A stretch of 64,000 nt of DNA from Candidatus Zixiibacteriota bacterium (lineage in GTDB: Bacteria > RBG-13-66-14 > B26-G2 > WVWN01): the NCBI GenBank assembly GCA_030613505.1, contig JAUWLW010000003.1, forward strand, positions 42,066 to 106,065, read 5' to 3'. Position numbers and translations under genes: made by a program. The notes under the pieces were generated by a model, which ran no database searches, had not been told where the DNA came from, and worked only from the letters and a program-made list of their open reading frames with translations. Below are positions 16,461 through 25,573 of the stretch, in pieces (positions within the stretch are counted from its first letter, which is position 1; each line of letters begins with the position of its first letter).

Positions 16461-16877
16461 ATGCGCGCGTTTATTATCGTAACGACGTTCGCGGTCGCGG
16501 CCGCGGCGGCCCAGGGCGGCTTCGTCCCGGCGCAGCCGATACACGTCGAGCCGCTGGGCGAAATCGAGGTAGAGCCGGGGGTGGTTTTCGCCGACACGGT
16601 GGTACTGAAGCTCGCCGTCGACGCCGAGGGGCAAATCACGGATGCCGAGGTATGGTCCTCCTCCGGCTACAACGTTGTAGACGCGGTGGCTTTGGCGTCG
16701 GCGCGTAAATGCATCTTTATACCGGCCACCCAGGACGGCGAGCCCGTCGAATCTTTCTATCAGATTTATTACCGGCTCTCGGCGTACAGAACGCGGAAGT
16801 ATTTGAGCGCCGAAGAAAAGGCCGGGACGGCCGGGAAAACACCTCCCCCCGAGGAGGACGATGACGGAGGAGACTAA
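16461..16877 (+). CDS. Exported single TonB C-terminal domain protein
   Basis: 138 residues starting at ATG 16461 (AAAGGGG upstream) with signal peptide MRAFIIVTTFAVAAAAAQGG. The domain reads VVLKLAVDAEGQITDAEVWS, then AVALASARKCIFIPATQDGE, the TonB-C fold signature. An acidic, Pro-containing tail (TPPPEEDDDGG) ends the protein and overlaps the lysS start by 17 bases. Likely periplasmic, partnering with an outer-membrane or secreted component; no ExbB/ExbD or TonB-dependent receptor is visible nearby. Confidence 0.62.
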   Translation: MRAFIIVTTFAVAAAAAQGGFVPAQPIHVEPLGEIEVEPGVVFADTVVLKLAVDAEGQITDAEVWSSSGYNVVDAVALASARKCIFIPATQDGEPVESFYQIYYRLSAYRTRKYLSAEEKAGTAGKTPPPEEDDDGGD

Positions 16878-19215
16878 AAGCCTGCGCGATATCCGGTTGG
16901 ACAAGCTCGCCCGCCTTCGCGAGCGAGGGGTCGACCCCTACCCCGTGGCGTCGACGCGAAGCCACGTCATACGCGACGTCACGACGGCCTTCGACGAGCT
17001 CGAGGGCAAAGAGGTAGCCGTCGTGGGCCGCGTCACCGCGCTCCGCCCACACGGCAGGGCCTCCTTCGCCGACGTAACCGACGCCACCGGTAAGATACAG
17101 CTGTACTTCAAATCGGACCTGCTGGGCGAGAGGTACGAGCTCTTCGACCTCCTGGACCTGGGCGACTTCGTGGGCGCCGCGGGTAAAGTTTTTAAGACTA
17201 AAACGGGTGAGATCACGATCGCCGCCGAGGACTTCACGCTCCTGGCCAAAGGGCTCCGCACGCCGCCGGTGGTGAAGACCGAAAAAACGGAAGAGGGCGA
17301 CGTCACCCACGACGAGTTCGCCGACCCGGAGAAGCGGTACCGGAAGCGCTACCTCGACGTGATGGTCAACCCGCAGGCGCGGGCCTGCGTCCTCACCCAC
17401 GCCGAAGTGCTCCGGGCGGCGCGGCGGTTCATGGCGGAACAGGGCTACGCCGAGATCGAGACCCCCATCCTCCAGCCGCTGTACGGCGGCGCCAACGCCT
17501 CCCCGTTCACCACCCGACACCGCGACCTGGAGATGGACCTCTACCTTCGCATCGCCGACGAGCTCTACCTCAAACGCCTTCTCGTCGCCGGCCTCGAGAA
17601 GGTTTACGAAATCGGCAAAGACTTCCGCAACGAATCCATCGACCGGACCCACTACCCGGAATTCACCATGCTCGAGGCGTACGAGGCCTTCGGCGACTAC
17701 CGGACGATGATGGCGCTGACCCGGGGCCTTATAATCGCCGCCGCGGAAGAGATACGTGGCACGTTGAAGCTGACGTACCAGGGCCGGGAAGTAACCCTCG
17801 AGCCACCGTGGGCCCGGGTCTCGCTGGTCGCGACGTTGAACGAACGGCTGGACGTGGACGTTCTGAATGAAGAGACGCAAACGCTCTCCGACCTTTACGT
17901 CCTACATTACCTGAAACGTTACGACGAACCACAGCGGGGAAATACTGAAACCAATGAGAAAAAAGCGAGAGAAGCTATGTACGGTGCTTCGCGCGCCAAG
18001 GTAATCGACGCGCTTTTTGACTTATTAGTGGCTTGCGATATTTGGAACCCGACGTTCGTGGTGGACTACCCGGCGGAACTTTCGCCCCTCGCCAAAAGGC
18101 AACCCGACAACCCGGCGCTCGCAGAGCGCTTCGAGCTATACCTTTGTAATATGGAAATAGCCAACGCCTTTAGCGAGCAAAACGACCCGGCCGAGCAGCG
18201 CAAGGCGCTGGAGGCGCAGGCGGAGGCCGGGGCCGCCGGCGACGAGGAAGCGCAACAGATGGACGAGGACTTCCTGGAGGCGCTCGAGTACGGCATGCCG
18301 CCCGCCGGCGGCTTGGGCGTCGGCATCGACCGCCTCGCGATGATCCTCTCCGATGCCCCCAGCATCCGCGAGGTCATCGCTTTTCCGTGTATAAAAACGG
18401 ACATTGAACGAGCGGTAACGAAAGAGGTAGCGCTATCCGAACTGAGGCGACTATATATAGAAATTGTAGGTGAAAGTATCGATAAAGACCCGAATAAAAA
18501 ATACTTAGAATACAAATATGTACCTATGTTAATGGGGATAGTCGTGGGGGTTAAGCGCTCCACAGCGAAAGGAATCGTAGAATACGATTTGCGTTCTGGG
18601 ATGGTTAACGACCCGCGTTTCGCGACGAGGAAGTTTAACGAATACCAAAACAAAATAAGAGCATATTTCGGCGACGAATTCCCTAAAGATAAGTTAGATC
18701 ACTATTTCCAAGAATTTTATATTAAGGGAGCCGAAGACGCTGCTATTAAGAATTCGTTATTCGAAATGCACGCGGAGTTAATCGATATCTTAGTATGCGA
18801 AGAAAAGATTAGACTTATAGAAAGGATAACCGTCATAGGAAAACCTATAAGGGCGAAGACTGGTCCCGTATTCGGATTTGGAGTAAAAGGTGCATGGGAT
18901 ATTAAAGTGGGTAAAGTTTACTTCGCAGTAACGACCCAGGGAAGGAACGAAACTTCGTTCAGGATATTCCCGGATTTGAAATACTTTGATTCCACAATAA
19001 AGTCAGGGACACTTTCTGGGCTGATAGATTTTACTAAAAAAAGTGAAAAGCTCAAAATAGGTTTACCGATCGAACGAAGTGAACTAGAAGATAAAATTAT
19101 AGAACTATCCTTAATTTACGAACCTATACCTTTCCCGGAAGTCCCGGGACCGCACTCGCTTAGAAAAAAGATAGATAGTATAGATATTACCGAAGACATA
19201 CTTGCATTATTATAA
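16861..19215 (+). CDS. lysS: Lysyl-tRNA synthetase with an in-frame foreign C-terminal extension
   Basis: Residues 1-509 are a normal class II LysRS: OB-fold anticodon domain (VAVVGRVTALRPHGRASFAD), motif 2 (GKDFRNESIDRTHYPEFTML) and motif 3 ([19 protein letters not shown]), ending at [10 protein letters not shown] standard LysRS would stop a few residues later. Here the frame continues 275 more codons in AT-rich DNA (CIKTDIERAVTKEV onward, to DILALL) with no recognisable domain. Two further copies of the LysRS tail lie downstream, the last with the expected QLRVKK ending, so the native end has been displaced by an insertion. The synthetase core should be active. Whether the extension is stable or functional, or starts separately at an internal ATG near 18527, is open. 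Confidence 0.85.
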   Translation: MTEETKSLRDIRLDKLARLRERGVDPYPVASTRSHVIRDVTTAFDELEGKEVAVVGRVTALRPHGRASFADVTDATGKIQLYFKSDLLGERYELFDLLDLGDFVGAAGKVFKTKTGEITIAAEDFTLLAKGLRTPPVVKTEKTEEGDVTHDEFADPEKRYRKRYLDVMVNPQARACVLTHAEVLRAARRFMAEQGYAEIETPILQPLYGGANASPFTTRHRDLEMDLYLRIADELYLKRLLVAGLEKVYEIGKDFRNESIDRTHYPEFTMLEAYEAFGDYRTMMALTRGLIIAAAEEIRGTLKLTYQGREVTLEPPWARVSLVATLNERLDVDVLNEETQTLSDLYVLHYLKRYDEPQRGNTETNEKKAREAMYGASRAKVIDALFDLLVACDIWNPTFVVDYPAELSPLAKRQPDNPALAERFELYLCNMEIANAFSEQNDPAEQRKALEAQAEAGAAGDEEAQQMDEDFLEALEYGMPPAGGLGVGIDRLAMILSDAPSIREVIAFPCIKTDIERAVTKEVALSELRRLYIEIVGESIDKDPNKKYLEYKYVPMLMGIVVGVKRSTAKGIVEYDLRSGMVNDPRFATRKFNEYQNKIRAYFGDEFPKDKLDHYFQEFYIKGAEDAAIKNSLFEMHAELIDILVCEEKIRLIERITVIGKPIRAKTGPVFGFGVKGAWDIKVGKVYFAVTTQGRNETSFRIFPDLKYFDSTIKSGTLSGLIDFTKKSEKLKIGLPIERSELEDKIIELSLIYEPIPFPEVPGPHSLRKKIDSIDITEDILALL
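18293..18387 (+). repeat. lysS 3'-end repeat, copy 1 (in lysS)
   Basis: Encodes [13 protein letters not shown] through IREVIAFP. It matches 20081-20175 at about 90% over 95 bases, with exact runs at the start (GCATGCCGCCCGCCGGCGG) and near the end (ATCCGCGAGGTCATCGC). A GCGA-N5-TCGC dyad lies in the latter. A shorter, diverged copy is at 19221-19271. Confidence 0.88.
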
Positions 19216-19220
19216 TACTA

Positions 19221-19289
19221 GCGATCTTCCTAGCCTATGCTCCTAACATCCGAGAGGTAATAGCCTTCGCGTAACTGCGGGTTAAATAA
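19221..19289 (+). pseudogene. lysS tail remnant, copy 2 (diverged)
   Basis: Reads [17 protein letters not shown], stop, LRVK, stop, against [22 protein letters not shown] in copy 3. About 71% nucleotide identity, with most differences inside NIREVIAF at synonymous third positions and shifted toward A/T. That pattern suggests it was once a functional lysS end in an AT-richer genome or evolved under coding constraint before capture. It marks the boundary between the two insertion units. Confidence 0.75.
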
Positions 19290-19304
19290 TATTAACGGTA
19301 AAAT

Positions 19305-19961
19305 ATGGTTTGGAATATAGATAAAATATGGCCTTGGGCCGTTGGATATATATGCATTATTGGTTGCGTAATAATATTCCGTCTTATATCTAATCGGAGA
19401 AAACTTAGGACGGGCGCCGGTAAAAAACCAACGTCGGAAGTTGAACGGAAAATATTCAATTTCCAAGAATTCCTTCTATCATTAGCGATATTCGGATTAA
19501 TCCTCAATTTTTACAGCCTCGAACTTAATAGGATTAATACCGAGAAAAATTTGGAAAACTATGAGGTAACTAATAGACCATATATCTTTATTAGGAAAAT
19601 TAACGGCAAATTAGATAAAACTACGAATGTTTTAAACTGTAGAGTCGCGATAATTAACACAGGTTCTGTACCGAGTTTGAATACTAAAATCACTGGCAAG
19701 GTTTTTTTTGGTGATGAATCCTACGAAAGCAAAGATAAACCAGGTTATTCAGCGATTTATCCGGAATCCTTAGTCTGGACCAGGTTCGGTTTTCCCGTTG
19801 ATCCAGTAAAACCCGTTAAAATCGTTAATAAAGTGACTTATTCCGATTACCGCGGGTATTTATACGAATACGAAGTCCATATTAGATATAATCGCGAGTT
19901 CCATAGTTTCACGTTCGAGAAATCTGACGAGACTATTACTAAACCTCAATTACCTAATTAA
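19305..19961 (+). CDS. Unrecognised two-helix membrane protein in the lysS insertion
   Basis: 218 residues, AT-rich, no family recognised. Two hydrophobic helices lie near the start (IWPWAVGYICIIGCVIIFRL, residues 8-27, and FLLSLAIFGLILNFYSLEL, about 55-73), separated by a basic loop (RRKLRTGAGKK). After them comes a roughly 140-residue soluble domain rich in beta-strands (RPYIFIRKINGKLD, VAIINTGSVPSLNTKITGKV, YEYEVHIRYN). The shape recalls small membrane-anchored accessory or immunity-type proteins, but that is only analogy. ATG 19305 has a weak GGT upstream. It is the sole cargo of unit B. Confidence 0.65.
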   Translation: MVWNIDKIWPWAVGYICIIGCVIIFRLISNRRKLRTGAGKKPTSEVERKIFNFQEFLLSLAIFGLILNFYSLELNRINTEKNLENYEVTNRPYIFIRKINGKLDKTTNVLNCRVAIINTGSVPSLNTKITGKVFFGDESYESKDKPGYSAIYPESLVWTRFGFPVDPVKPVKIVNKVTYSDYRGYLYEYEVHIRYNREFHSFTFEKSDETITKPQLPN

Positions 19962-20082
19962 AAAGCCCGCGTATTATTTCGGGAGTAAGACGTAGGGAAT
20001 TAAAGGGTAAGATCGCCGGCAGTAAGAAAGGTTAATGGGCTTCGTAAAGGTACTCATTTGGCCTGCTATAATATTCTCCAGC

Positions 20083-20196
20083 ATGCCGCCCGCCGGCGGC
20101 CTGGGCGTCGGCGTCGACCGCGTCGCGATGATCCTGGCCGACGCGTCCAACATCCGCGAGGTCATCGCGTTCCCGCAGCTTAGGGTAAAAAAGTGA
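20083..20196 (+). pseudogene. Displaced native lysS 3' end, copy 3
   Basis: Encodes [21 protein letters not shown] then [16 protein letters not shown] and a TGA stop, that is, motif 3 to the natural C-terminus of LysRS in host-like GC-rich codons. It begins abruptly at GCATGCCG with AT-rich DNA before it, including TATAAT at 20067-20072, and has no upstream LysRS body. Differences from copy 1 are about 10%. It is the far boundary of the insertion. Confidence 0.85.
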
Positions 20197-20220
20197 CGGC
20201 TATCTTCTCGCAATAGGCTA

Positions 20221-20934
20221 ATGTTTTCGTATACCGCCGCCATGGAAGGAATAGAAATCCCCACCCGCGAGCTCGTCTTAGGGCTCGTCGGCGTATACAA
20301 CCGGGCGCACTGGCCCGCGGCGGCCTTCGGCGCCGTCGTCGCGTTGGCCGCGGCCGCGTTCGTATTGGCCAGGCCCGGCGCCTTCAGCGACTTAATAGTT
20401 AAAATTCTGCTCAACGTGTTGTGGCTCTGGACCGCCATTATCTTCTTTTGGGGCCGCTTCGCGCCCGATTTCCACGTCGCCTATCTCTTCGCCTTCGCCT
20501 TCATACTACAGGGCACTTTTTTCTTTATGGACGCCTTCTTCGGAACGTTGGAATTCCGACCTTTTAAAAGTCCCGCCACGCTATTAATAGGGTGTTCGTT
20601 GATCGGCGTGGCCGGAATCTTACACCCTATTATTTCGACCTGGCTCGGCCGCGGTTGGCCCGAGCTGAGGCTCGTAGGCACCGCGCCGGGGCCCACCGCG
20701 GCATTTACGTTGGCCCTACTCACTTTCACGCTCCATAAGCCGAGGCCGCTATTTTTCGTGGTCCCCGCGGCCTGGGCGCTAATCGCCGGCCTTTGCGTCG
20801 CCGAGGCCTGGCACTTTTACGAGGAATTAATCCTGGCCGGCGTCGCGGCCGCGGTTATACTTTATTTCGTAGCCGCCTTATGGCGAACGCTGCCCGTACG
20901 CGAATCTAAACCCGCCGGAGGAGCTACCCCATGA
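20221..20934 (+). CDS. DUF6064 family membrane protein (first of pair)
   Basis: About 237 residues with seven hydrophobic segments. Family-like features are VYNRAHWPAAAFGAVVALAA at the N-terminus, FAPDFHVAYLFAFAFILQGT in the middle and the GWPELRLVGTAPGPTAAFTL loop with a conserved Gly-x-Pro before the C-terminal helices. DUF6064 proteins are integral membrane proteins of unknown function. ATG 20221 is used; ATG 20245 (MEGIEIPTREL) is an equally good start and neither has a clear SD. The ATGA overlap with the next gene shows the two are co-translated. Confidence 0.78.
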   Translation: MFSYTAAMEGIEIPTRELVLGLVGVYNRAHWPAAAFGAVVALAAAAFVLARPGAFSDLIVKILLNVLWLWTAIIFFWGRFAPDFHVAYLFAFAFILQGTFFFMDAFFGTLEFRPFKSPATLLIGCSLIGVAGILHPIISTWLGRGWPELRLVGTAPGPTAAFTLALLTFTLHKPRPLFFVVPAAWALIAGLCVAEAWHFYEELILAGVAAAVILYFVAALWRTLPVRESKPAGGATP

Positions 20935-21578
20935 CAAGCGCAGAGGCATTTACATCCTTCCTCGCGGAATTCAACCGCGCCGTCTTTCCGGCGCATATCC
21001 TCTTCTACCTGCTGGCGATAGGCGCGGCGTTCCTCGTCTTCGCGCGCCCCGGCAAGTGGTCCGACGTCGCCGCGAAAGGCGTCCTGGCGGTCCTTTGGGC
21101 CTGGCTCGGCATCTTCTACATGATAACGTTTTACACGCGGATAAATTCCGCCGGCTACGCCTGGGGCGCGCTATTCCTCCTGCAGGCGGCATTTTTCGCC
21201 GTCGAAATCTTTTGGCCCAAGATCGAATTCCGGCCGTACTTTCACCCGAAGCTCGGCCACATCGGCGCGACCGTCGCCGGGTGGTCGCTGGTGGGGTACC
21301 CCATAACGGCGCTGATATTCAAACACGGGTGGCCCGAGCTCGCGCTCTTCGGCTGCGCGGCGCCGGTAGCGATATTCACGTGCGGGATGCTGCTCTTCAC
21401 CTTCGACCGCAAACCGCGCTGGCGCTTCACGTTCATACCGTTCCTGTGGTCCGTCGTGGGCGGCCTCGGACCCGCGGTGCAGTGGCGCTACTTCGAAGAT
21501 TACGCCCTCTTCGCCGCCGGCCTTATATTGCTCGCCGCGTGGATATGGGCTTCTTACAAATACAAGAAAAAGAAATAG
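20931..21578 (+). CDS. DUF6064 family membrane protein (second of pair)
   Basis: 215 residues, paralogue of the preceding gene. Shared elements are EFNRAVFPAHILFYLLAIGA, LVFARPGKWSD, an LGIFYMITFYTRINSAGYAW segment and HGWPELALFGCAAPVAIFTC. Seven membrane helices are predicted by eye and the protein ends in a basic tail (YKYKKKK). GGAGGAG lies just before the ATG. The overlap and similarity suggest a duplicated pair that may form a hetero-oligomer. Function unknown. Confidence 0.78.
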   Translation: MTSAEAFTSFLAEFNRAVFPAHILFYLLAIGAAFLVFARPGKWSDVAAKGVLAVLWAWLGIFYMITFYTRINSAGYAWGALFLLQAAFFAVEIFWPKIEFRPYFHPKLGHIGATVAGWSLVGYPITALIFKHGWPELALFGCAAPVAIFTCGMLLFTFDRKPRWRFTFIPFLWSVVGGLGPAVQWRYFEDYALFAAGLILLAAWIWASYKYKKKK

Positions 21579-21647: not shown

Positions 21648-22616
21648 ATGAACCACCTCCCTATAATTACAGCCACGCTGGCGGCCGCCCTCGCGGCAAC
21701 GTCCGCGGCGACGTACGTATACGAAGGGCAATGGGGCCGGTTGGGTACGGGCCACGGCGCGTTCACGGAGGTCTCCGGCGTCGCCGTGGCGCCGAACGGA
21801 AACGTCTACGTCTCCGACCAGGGTAACAATTGCATCCAATACTTTACGGCCGGCGGCAGCTTCCTCGGCAAGTGGGGGACGGCCGGTACGGAGCCGGGGC
21901 AATTCAACAGGCCGTTCGGCGTGGCGGTCGCGCCAAAAGGAAGGGTATACGTCGCCGATACGCGTAACGACCGCATACAATACTTCACCGCGACCGGCAG
22001 CTACCTCGGCCGATGGGGCCGGCCTGGGTCGGGGGCGGGAGAGTTCGATAGACCCCGGGGCATCGCGGTTGCACGTAGCGGGAACGTCTTCGTCGCCGAC
22101 GCCGAGAACGACCGCGTACAACGGTTCACCGCCAACGGCGGTTACTTGGGGAAGTGGGGTCACAGCGGTAAACGCGACGGCCAGTTCGACTTCCCCGCCG
22201 ACGTCGCGCTCGCGCCCGACGGCCGGGCGTACGTGGCGGACGCCGGGAACGCGCGGGTCCAATATTTTACGGCGTTCGGGACGTTTCTGGGTAAATGGGG
22301 CTCGTGGGGCTACGGCAAAGGCCAATTCTTCTTCCCGAAAAATATAACCGTTTCGGCCGACGAACGGGTATTCGTGACGGAGGATTTCAACCACCGCGCC
22401 CAGTATTTTACGACGAGCGGCAGTTTTCTTGGAATGTGGGGCTCGCTCGGAAAGGGCGAAGGAGAATTCAACGAGCCGCGGGGCGTCGCGACGTTTAATA
22501 ACGGCAAACGCGTCTACACCGCGGACAGGTGGAACGACCGCGTCCAGTATTTCCGGCGCGTGGAATACGACATCGAGCCGTGCTCGCTCGGGCGCGTCAA
22601 AGCGCTCTTCGAATAA
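21648..22616 (+). CDS. Secreted NHL-repeat beta-propeller with SLGRVKALF tail (1)
   Basis: Signal peptide (LPIITATLAAALAATSAAT), then six NHL units of about 47 residues, each of the form G-x-F-x-x-P-x-G-V-A-V-A-x-x-G-N/R-V-Y-V-A-D-x-x-N-x-R-(I/V)-Q-Y-F. The units should close a six-bladed propeller. The last 14 residues (DIEPCSLGRVKALFE) recur on three other proteins of the window. No catalytic residues are evident, so a surface or secreted binding role is most likely. ATG 21648 has no SD. First of three tandem paralogues; units near 22330-22400 are the most diverged. Confidence 0.85.
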   Translation: MNHLPIITATLAAALAATSAATYVYEGQWGRLGTGHGAFTEVSGVAVAPNGNVYVSDQGNNCIQYFTAGGSFLGKWGTAGTEPGQFNRPFGVAVAPKGRVYVADTRNDRIQYFTATGSYLGRWGRPGSGAGEFDRPRGIAVARSGNVFVADAENDRVQRFTANGGYLGKWGHSGKRDGQFDFPADVALAPDGRAYVADAGNARVQYFTAFGTFLGKWGSWGYGKGQFFFPKNITVSADERVFVTEDFNHRAQYFTTSGSFLGMWGSLGKGEGEFNEPRGVATFNNGKRVYTADRWNDRVQYFRRVEYDIEPCSLGRVKALFE

Positions 22617-22712
22617 CGGACATCATCACCTCTTCCGTTAGGAACAAACGGCGAGTACGATTATTAACGGGACCGTACGACGGTCTCACCGCTTACCCGG
22701 GGAGGTTCGAAT

Positions 22713-23690
22713 ATGAGAATAGGAATTGCGACGGCGGCCGTATTACTAGCCACGACAGCGGCGTTCGCCGACTTCGCGTACGAAGGGAAGTGGGGCGCGC
22801 AAGGGACCGGCGAAGGGCAGTTCGACCACCCGTGGGACGTCGCCGTTGCGCCCGGCGGCCGGGTTTTCGTCGTCGACCGCCACAACCACCGCGTCCAGTA
22901 CTTCACGCCTACCGGGAGTTACCGCGGGAAGTGGGGCTCGTACGGCACCGGCGCCGGCAAGTTCCGCTTTCCCTCCGGGATCGCCGCCTCGGCGACCCGC
23001 GTGTACGCGGGCGATTCGCTGAACCACCGGATACAATACTTCACAAGCGCGGGGAGTTTCCTGGCATCTTGGGGCGCCGCCGGGACGGGCGAGGGACAAT
23101 TCAATAAGCCGCTGGGGGTAGCCCTGGCGCCGAACGGCAACGTATACGTCGTGGACGCCGGCAATTACCGCGTCCAGTACTTTTCGCCGGCGGGGAGCTT
23201 CCTGGGCAGTTGGGGCGCGCGGGGCAGCGGCCAGGGCCAATTCGACGACCCACAAGGGATAGCGGTAGGCGAAAACGGCAACGTTTACGTCGCGGACGCC
23301 GGCAATCACCACGTCCAGCGGTTTACTTCGGGCGGGAGCTACGTGCGGTCGTGGGGCACGCGTGGAACCGGCGACGGCCAATTCAATACGCCGTGCGGCG
23401 TCGCGGTCGGCCCGGAAGGCAACATATACGTCGTCGATTGCTACAACCACCGCATCCAGTACTTTACGCCGACGGGTAGTTTCCTCGGCAAGTGGGGCTC
23501 CTTCGGCACCGGCGACGGCCAACTCAATTACGCGTGGGGCGTCGCCGCGACGCGGTGGAGCCGCGGTGATACGTCGACGGTACGAGTATACGTCGCGGAT
23601 ACCAACAACAACCGCGTGCAATATTTTAAGGACGGCCTGCCCGCGGTCGAGCCGACGTCGTTGGGGCGCGTAAAAGGGCTTTTCAAATAA
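22713..23690 (+). CDS. Secreted NHL-repeat beta-propeller with SLGRVKGLF tail (2)
   Basis: 325 residues; signal peptide MRIGIATAAVLLATTAAFAD, and GGGGAGG precedes ATG 22713. Six NHL blades, including NHRVQYFTPTGSYRGKWGS and GNVYVVDAGNYRVQYFSPAG. The final blade carries a short insert (ATRWSRGDTSTVRVYVAD). It ends VEPTSLGRVKGLFK. Blade sequences are closest to each other at the Y-F-T-x-x-G-S-F-L-G-x-W-G hinge, consistent with duplication of the neighbours. Confidence 0.87.
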   Translation: MRIGIATAAVLLATTAAFADFAYEGKWGAQGTGEGQFDHPWDVAVAPGGRVFVVDRHNHRVQYFTPTGSYRGKWGSYGTGAGKFRFPSGIAASATRVYAGDSLNHRIQYFTSAGSFLASWGAAGTGEGQFNKPLGVALAPNGNVYVVDAGNYRVQYFSPAGSFLGSWGARGSGQGQFDDPQGIAVGENGNVYVADAGNHHVQRFTSGGSYVRSWGTRGTGDGQFNTPCGVAVGPEGNIYVVDCYNHRIQYFTPTGSFLGKWGSFGTGDGQLNYAWGVAATRWSRGDTSTVRVYVADTNNNRVQYFKDGLPAVEPTSLGRVKGLFK

Positions 23691-23787
23691 ATCGCGTAAC
23701 GGACCTGACGGCAACTTCCTAACACGGCTCCGGTTCGGGACGGCGTTCGCGCCGAGCCGGTAATCACATCTGAACAAAGGACGGAAA

Positions 23788-24753
23788 ATGAAACGAGTAT
23801 CGATACTAGCCGCTCTCTCAATTTGTATCGCCGCGGCCGCCTCCGCCGATTTTAAATACGCCGGCCAGTGGGGCTCGCCCGGTACCGCCGCGGGCGAATT
23901 CAACGCGCCGACGGGGATAGCGGTCGCGCCCAACGGCAACGTCTACGTCGCCGACGAGTTCAACCATCGCATCCAATACTTCACCGCCGCCGGCAGCTTC
24001 CTCGGCCGGTGGGGTTCGCGCGGCTCCGGTAAGGGTGAGTTTATCTACCCCGCCGACGTGGCGGTGGCGCCCAACGGCAACGTCTACGTCGCCGACTTCG
24101 ACAACAATCGGATCCAGTACTTCAAACCGAACGGCACGTTCGTGGGCAAGTGGGGCGAGTACGGCATCTTGCCGCGGTTCTTCAATAAGCCGCACGGCGT
24201 CGCCGTAGCGCGCAACGGCAACGTCTACGTGGCGGATACCTATAACAATCGCGCGCAGTACTTCACTCGAGCCGGCAGCTTCCTGGGCTCCTGGGGCACT
24301 AAAGGCGCCGCCGACGGCCAATTCGACCAACCCATTAGCATCGCCGTCGCGCCCCACGGCAACGTCTACGTCGCGGACCGGCTCAACAACCGGGTGCAGT
24401 ACTTCGACGCCAAGGGCGCCTTCCTCGGTAAATGGGGCACGAAGGGCTTCGGCTGGGGACAATTCGAGTACCCCTCGGCTATAGCGGCCAGCCCCGACTA
24501 CCGCATCTACGTCACCGATTACTCCTGGCACCACGTCCAGTATTTTACGGCGTCCGGCAGCTTCCTCGGCAAATGGGGAGGCCAAGGGACGCTCAACGGC
24601 GAATTCAACTTCCCCGACGGCATCGCCATTTCGCCGGCGGGTACGAAGGCGTACGTGGCCGACTCCGGCAATAACCGCATTCAGTACTTCAAGCGCGTCG
24701 AGCCCGCCGTCGCGCCTACGTCGCTTGGGCGCGTGAAGGCGCTGTTTAAATAA
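23788..24753 (+). CDS. Secreted NHL-repeat beta-propeller with SLGRVKALF tail (3)
   Basis: 321 residues; signal peptide ILAALSICIAAAASADFKYA, AAAGGAC before ATG 23788. Six blades such as GNVYVADEFNHRIQYFTAAG and GNVYVADFDNNRIQYFKPNG, ending VAPTSLGRVKALFK. The spacer before it (23691-23787) contains a CGGCTC/GAGCCG stem enclosing a GGCG-TTCG-CGCC hairpin, possibly limiting read-through from paralogue 2. Ligand unknown. Confidence 0.87.
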   Translation: MKRVSILAALSICIAAAASADFKYAGQWGSPGTAAGEFNAPTGIAVAPNGNVYVADEFNHRIQYFTAAGSFLGRWGSRGSGKGEFIYPADVAVAPNGNVYVADFDNNRIQYFKPNGTFVGKWGEYGILPRFFNKPHGVAVARNGNVYVADTYNNRAQYFTRAGSFLGSWGTKGAADGQFDQPISIAVAPHGNVYVADRLNNRVQYFDAKGAFLGKWGTKGFGWGQFEYPSAIAASPDYRIYVTDYSWHHVQYFTASGSFLGKWGGQGTLNGEFNFPDGIAISPAGTKAYVADSGNNRIQYFKRVEPAVAPTSLGRVKALFK

Positions 24754-24769
24754 TAATTAAACTAACGCT

Positions 24770-25549
24770 TTGGGAAAAACGGTCAATTTATTGACCGGTA
24801 TTGTTGCCGGCCTAAACGTCATCTTACCATCCGTCGTCGCCGGCGGAACCGCCGTCGAAGGACTTACGGCGGAAAAAGCGGGAATACCCGAGCGAGATTT
24901 CATATCTCCCGAAACCGCAAAAAAATTAGCAGCCCCGCTTCGGGACCCTTTGGCGGGTGATTACGTCGTTGAGAACACGATAGTATTCCCTTGGTTAATA
25001 GAAGATTGGAACGTCTACGAGCCCGATATAAAAATGGGTTTTTACGAGATAACCGTCTACAGCGGTAAAACTCGATACTCCACGCACGCTGCCTTAAACG
25101 CCAAGGTAGAAGAATATCTTCGTTCGGTTAAGCCGCTCATTTACATCCGCAGCGGCGAGTGGTACGTGGAACCTCGGGAGTTACTATCTAGAGAAGCGTT
25201 AACCCGTGAATTATTCGGATACTCCGACGTAATTACTTACTGGATCCCGGTTAATAAAAAATACGGCCGAAAAAGGTCGTCGTGGTCTGATAGCGCTATC
25301 GGTTGGAATACGCTGATGTTACATATATGTAGTACCGTAGCCTCGAAGGTCGCCCCTAGTCATAACCCGGTTTATGAAAAGACGATTAAATTTTCCGGTT
25401 TAAACGAATTCACGATTTTTAGAATTAATAGTGAGGAGATTTTCATACAGACCGGGGATATACACAACCGGCACCGTATATTTACCAGTAAAGCGGATTT
25501 CGACGAATATTTACTGGCGAACGTCGAAACGATCAAGGTTAAAGAATGA
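24770..25549 (+). CDS. Unrecognised AT-rich exported protein
   Basis: 259 residues from TTG 24770, no family recognised and no clear SD. The first 25 residues (KTVNLLTGIVAGLNVILPSV) resemble a signal peptide. The rest looks globular with mixed alpha/beta (VVENTIVFPWLIEDWNVYEP, MGFYEITVYSGKTRYSTHAA, FSGLNEFTIFRINSEEIFIQ) and acidic/basic balance. Its base composition is clearly more AT-rich than the NHL genes and LolCE beside it, resembling the cargo of the lysS insertion. No mobility gene adjoins. An alternative start further downstream cannot be excluded. Confidence 0.6.
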   Translation: MGKTVNLLTGIVAGLNVILPSVVAGGTAVEGLTAEKAGIPERDFISPETAKKLAAPLRDPLAGDYVVENTIVFPWLIEDWNVYEPDIKMGFYEITVYSGKTRYSTHAALNAKVEEYLRSVKPLIYIRSGEWYVEPRELLSREALTRELFGYSDVITYWIPVNKKYGRKRSSWSDSAIGWNTLMLHICSTVASKVAPSHNPVYEKTIKFSGLNEFTIFRINSEEIFIQTGDIHNRHRIFTSKADFDEYLLANVETIKVKE

Positions 25550-25573
25550 ACCCACAAAGGCCAAATATATAAG

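Follow-up and report, generated by a model that had tools for sequence, protein, structure and literature searches.

Long target duplications around inserted genes have been recognised from genome comparison since 2000 and linked mainly to restriction-modification genes. A comparison of two Helicobacter genomes led to their description, and the duplications around restriction-modification systems are long and variable, of the order of 100 bp; citations in PMC1643837, PMC3874152 and PMC3031569 credit the type to Nobusato et al. 2000 and Furuta et al. 2010. No established mechanism for the duplication was found in these papers. Restriction-modification cargo is how the type was described and not a mechanistic requirement. 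A different kind of element is known from the 3' end of lysS, where streptococcal ICEs integrate and are flanked by repeats of 13-17 bp (PMC4701971, PMC7168690), and the statement of the sequence-only reading that no lysS cassette system had been described is to be corrected in this respect.

In an uncultured member of Candidatus Coatesbacteria two foreign genes are joined to the end of lysS, and the tail of the gene is duplicated. Within the window, i.e. the whole stretch of 64,000 nt that was analysed, lysS (16861..18387, forward strand) encodes a class II lysyl-tRNA synthetase (LysRS) up to the residues VIAFP, with motif 3 intact, and its product matches the NCBIfam model TIGR00499 with 499.6 bits (cut-off 427.6). 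The frame does not end there: the ORF 16861-19215 is a single frame of 784 codons that runs from VIAFP (18387) into 275 further AT-rich codons, referred to here as cargo A (18388..19215, forward strand). This frame is kept open by coding and not by chance, since it was open in 0 of 2000 shuffles and each of the other frames is broken by 5-30 stops. A second gene, cargo B (19305..19961, forward strand), is an ORF of 218 aa. Third-position GC (GC3) is 0.39 in cargo A and 0.35 in cargo B, against 0.71-0.86 in host genes. The fused lysS is the only full-length LysRS match and the sole class II LysRS detected in its own genome, the assembly of which is 93% complete and contains no class I LysRS above cut-off. 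LysRS activity is plausible because motif 3 lies intact within the proximal tail copy, and the fused LysRS may well work as an enzyme.

The tail of lysS is present in three copies. The proximal or left target copy, which serves as the LysRS end (18293..18387, forward strand), forms a 95-nt repeat with positions 20081-20175; the two are 88% identical, differ at 11 sites and have a longest common exact word of 20 nt. The displaced distal copy (20081..20199, forward strand) is host-like and carries the normal lysS end, QLRVKK and a stop codon. Between them lies a diverged, AT-rich middle copy (19218..19289, forward strand) with an alignment score of 60, the maximum among shuffles being 30. No further lysS tail was found elsewhere in the genome's own assembly. 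Altogether, the ORF and repeat comparisons confirm what the sequence-only reading had seen, namely 275 foreign codons in frame and real tail copies downstream, and its unit lengths of 884 and 904 bp are correct when counted to the same codon. Its claim that both units are joined after the same codon does not hold, as the middle copy continues the match to the lysS end for 18 bases further (..taaCTGCGGGTTAAAtaa, to 19289) and the left edges of the displaced copies differ (about 19218 in the middle copy, 20081 in the distal one). Nor did its view of the copies as att-like repeats find support: they are unlike in extent and sequence, with no short conserved att core at lysS. The GCGA-N5-TCGC dyad that it had pointed out occurs at chance frequency (8 occurrences in the window against 5.4 expected) and was rejected as a recombination site for that reason; the middle copy has lost it.

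Three congeners were compared, namely G001, G002 (Candidatus Coatesbacteria bin961) and G003 (an A-C077 assembly labelled Zixiibacteriota). In all three lysS ends 6-7 residues past VIAFP and the site is empty, the alignment flanks meeting with an overlap of 94-95 bp that corresponds to the target copy. In G001 a DUF6064-like gene follows immediately 3' of lysS, and two DUF6064 genes are the native downstream neighbours in the window (20221..21578, forward strand). The alignment of relatives' lysS loci, which had been proposed as a check together with the claim of a foreign insertion at the lysS 3' end, thus supports this claim, as does the foreign composition of the insert. An ancient, vertically inherited C-terminal LysRS domain was rejected, because the extension is absent in the three congeners and cargo A is without a homologue in 60 relatives.

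An assembly error at lysS appears unlikely, since the two 95-nt copies have no exact word longer than 20 nt in common and differ at 11 sites. That a chimera of assembly or binning created the arrangement is barely credible to us: the genome is a draft of 100 contigs, presumably derived from a metagenome, but besides the shortness of the common word the contig is syntenic with G001 on both sides, and the same anatomy is seen again on another contig.

The tail copies also differ in their apparent origin. Between the middle and the distal copy, differences at codon positions 1, 2 and 3 number 7, 0 and 13, respectively, with 23 positions each (Fisher p=0.0006), and the middle copy uses AT-rich codons. 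Because the differences fall mainly on third and never on second positions, neutral decay would not account for them, and the middle copy would come from a functional, different, AT-rich lysS. By this codon pattern it appears not to be a recent copying of the host tail, and its history would be that of the end of a working lysS in an AT-rich background. The distal copy is 94% and the proximal copy 85% identical to G001 across the last 96 nt. The two 95-nt copies have four states in common against G001; relative to it private changes number 10 in the proximal and 1 in the displaced copy (p=0.012), and the middle copy is foreign-like. It is thus the functional copy that has moved away more from G001, whereas plain decay of a dead copy would have given the opposite. 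Inside lysS there is, in addition, a compositionally odd patch with an insertion of about 10 residues (17848..18048, forward strand). It is about 47% identical in nucleotides to the congener, flanking lysS being 80-90% identical, and its GC3 is 0.54 compared with 0.84-0.86; the patch is of foreign composition. The segment between patch and cargo (18106-18375) is GC-rich and 82-88% identical to G001.

Both cargo proteins were searched against databases, another check that had been suggested from the sequence, and proved to be orphans without a family match. Cargo A gave no match in Pfam, NCBIfam, PHROGs, PADLOC, PDB, phages, plasmids, viral contigs or genome contigs, cargo B none in Pfam, NCBIfam, PHROGs, PADLOC, PDB, plasmids or viral contigs, and neither is present in the 60 relative genomes. 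With no family matched by either protein, the lysS cargo is not a restriction-modification system. Single-sequence models were of poor quality, with a mean pLDDT of 33.8 for cargo A and 54.7 for cargo B; in the low-confidence model of the latter, two predicted helices, probably membrane-embedded, are followed by a beta-rich domain. As stated in the sequence-only reading, the lysS insert contains no recombinase gene. Elsewhere the genome encodes six tyrosine recombinases (PF00589). A serine recombinase (Ccr-like) as the mover was ruled out, as no protein of the resolvase family (PF00239) was found in the assembly.

Like insertions were sought in 746 kb of the same genome, sampled as stretches, by looking for direct repeats 40-200 nt long whose copies are 85% or more identical and separated by 0.4-4 kb. 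Thirteen such repeats were found, and three of them enclose DNA with a GC content of 0.38-0.43 (lysS, C7:252-1472 and C7:33225-35103); 500-bp windows with GC below 0.45 make up just 1.5%. At C7:252-1472 (L220:252-1472) the target is the overlap of the yebC 3' end with the comEC start, duplicated as a 123-nt repeat of 93% identity. The insert has a GC content of 0.38 and two small AT-rich genes, probably encoding two membrane proteins, and the site is empty in G001 and G003. At C7:33225-35103 (L230:13225-15103) a 91-nt repeat of 98% identity duplicates the 5' end of rtcB, a gene recognised by eye from its sequence, and encloses an N6/N4 DNA methylase (PF01555, 1.4e-52) and a BglII-family endonuclease (PF09195, 4e-21). 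This site is empty in G001, whose flanks have an overlap of about 98 bp, and the insert is absent from G002 and G003 as well. Both target copies at rtcB carry the same host-specific states that differ from G001, so that this duplication arose at the site itself. In every tested respect the rtcB case is an insertion with long target duplication.

Two additional loci are probably further cases of this kind, congener confirmation being limited to lysS, yebC/comEC and rtcB. A 57-nt repeat at C11:17274-18151 (L223:17274-18151) has a tRNA as candidate target, the 5' half of which, with a promoter-like box, was left behind by an insert encoding an NYN-domain protein. At C68:31893-34243 (L247:11893-14243) the 5' end of a gene of unknown function is the candidate target, and the 163-nt repeat (94%) encloses a foreign-looking gene of 185 aa and an NHL-like gene. 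Repeats at C10 and two pairs on C68, of 68-78% identity, were left out of account because they are probably tandem paralogues. On C11 we also observed a second tRNA gene with a partial copy nearby, a 3' half preceding AT-rich DNA (L223:18361-18824).

The sequence-only reading had proposed a cassette system dedicated to lysS. Our survey covered 165 lysS loci from Coatesbacteria and diverse phyla, each with 600 bp or more of downstream DNA and together providing about 600 kb of it; the window is included and some loci overlap. Apart from the window a tail copy was present at one locus only (L096, Lachnospiraceae), and long repeats occur at unrelated genes of the host genome. The insertion pattern thus belongs to the genome and not to lysS, and a dedicated system is not supported. 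In L096 (6433-7308) an exact repeat of 28-31 bp of the lysS end, its copies 844 bp apart, surrounds a small ORF and a zeta-toxin-family protein (PF06414, 9.8e-7) that ends in the copied lysS tail, without an integrase. Given that streptococcal ICEs integrate at this gene end, the cassette may be the remnant of an ICE-type element.

That the lysS locus arose by repeated insertion with long target duplication, as a variant of the known type, is in our judgement probable, if by a narrow measure. We place it there because the anatomy is the same, and call it a variant because the cargo is orphan and the copies are three. It has in common with the restriction-modification insertions a short foreign block without a recombinase, long variable target copies and an empty site in relatives, and one case of this genome (rtcB) is itself a restriction-modification pair. 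It is unlike them in its orphan cargo, two nested rounds, diverged copies and an essential target fused to 275 foreign residues. The single-copy empty site in congeners, the foreign composition and the flanking target repeats of variable length (95 nt at lysS, 123 at yebC, 91 at rtcB) are direct observations, and like anatomy recurs at yebC/comEC and rtcB. From the three tail copies and two cargo genes we infer two successive rounds of insertion, in each of which the target duplication would have arisen as the foreign DNA went in, through the host's own recombination or repair or through a trans-acting enzyme. Cargo A, if expressed, would be a C-terminal extension of LysRS or be made via reinitiation; cargo B possesses its own ATG. 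Against such a history stand the middle copy, as simple local duplication gives no copy derived from a functional, different lysS, the stronger divergence of the proximal than of the displaced copy, and the two further inserts of foreign DNA on this contig, which lack a target copy. The class of event at lysS is better supported than the order of events there. A wider claim, possible but doubtful, credits this Coatesbacteria lineage with a general and so far undescribed process of gene capture, carried out in trans by an enzyme or a repair route, through which short AT-rich genes of selfish or orphan kind enter many loci, and lysS twice; besides lysS, the 746 kb sampled contain two confirmed cases and two probable ones, which would correspond to perhaps 10-20 per genome. 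If true, it would make target duplications of 57-163 bp at many loci and would have fused an essential synthetase at lysS.

The codon pattern of the middle copy, the private changes of the proximal copy and the foreign patch leave room for an element-borne lysS end or the import of a lysS allele. Cis-mobilizable elements (CIMEs) have no integrase and can accrete in tandem, and when phage 21 or e14 enters E. coli icd the incoming DNA supplies a diverged gene 3' end and displaces the old one. We hold it unlikely that att-flanked remnants or trans-mobilised mini-elements of an integrase specific for the lysS 3' end acted in this way here, with the element end displacing the host end and two elements accreted in tandem. 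The reading stays a rival because this gene end is the attB of streptococcal ICEs, and the exact repeat around a toxin-antitoxin-like cassette in L096, the diverged proximal and host-like distal copies, as if an element had supplied its own end, and the six tyrosine recombinases fit it too. Streptococcal ICEs use the same gene end and likewise have gene-end direct repeats on both sides, but theirs are 13-17 bp long and accompanied by a tyrosine integrase, whereas here a diverged 95-nt repeat encloses 1.7 kb without a mobility gene. Moreover, no fixed core is present and the left borders of the copies are unequal, the repeats of 57-163 bp lie at unrelated targets (rtcB 5' end, yebC/comEC overlap, tRNA 5' half), and the assembly has no further lysS tail. 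Phage 21 and e14 resemble the locus in the replacement of a gene end, but they carry an integrase and restore the normal stop codon, which the new lysS end does not. Homologous import of part of the lysS of an AT-rich relative with its downstream genes, giving a mosaic gene with the host tail left downstream, would explain both the odd patch and a middle tail from an AT-rich functional lysS. It is nevertheless improbable, as several crossovers would be required around the GC-rich, G001-like segment 18106-18375, the like anatomy at other genes is left unexplained, and the cargo searches of the 60 relatives and of plasmid and viral collections revealed no donor.

Compared with these systems, insertion with long target duplication has new features here: the orphan cargo, the nesting and the fusion of 275 residues to the sole detected LysRS. 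In Rhs/CDI polymorphic toxins orphan C-terminal modules are separated by copies of the core's end; unlike them, LysRS is no toxin delivery protein, and cargo B is out of frame with its tail copy. The lysS case indicates that the end of an essential gene can be overtaken by foreign coding sequence. Cases of different age (copies 98%, 93% and 88% identical), with differing cargo and confirmed empty sites, provide material for studying junctions, target choice and the origin of the copies.

Relative to the congeners this contig carries three foreign inserts, lysS included. One, in the window (24754-25573), is AT-rich with an orphan ORF of 259 aa (24770-25549); its flanks abut in G001, and it separates an NHL-repeat gene from an FtsX-like gene, lying precisely between the stop of the former and the ATG of the latter. 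The other, upstream of the window (C63:37539-39438, L053), comprises 1.9 kb of AT-rich DNA with an ATPase-like gene of 577 aa, is absent from G001 and G003 and lies exactly between two genes of an apparent microcompartment operon. No copy of the joined gene ends was found at either site. Within the window, positions 21725-24566 encode tandem NHL-repeat proteins with a repeat unit of 141 nt and a common C-terminal LGRVKALF motif.
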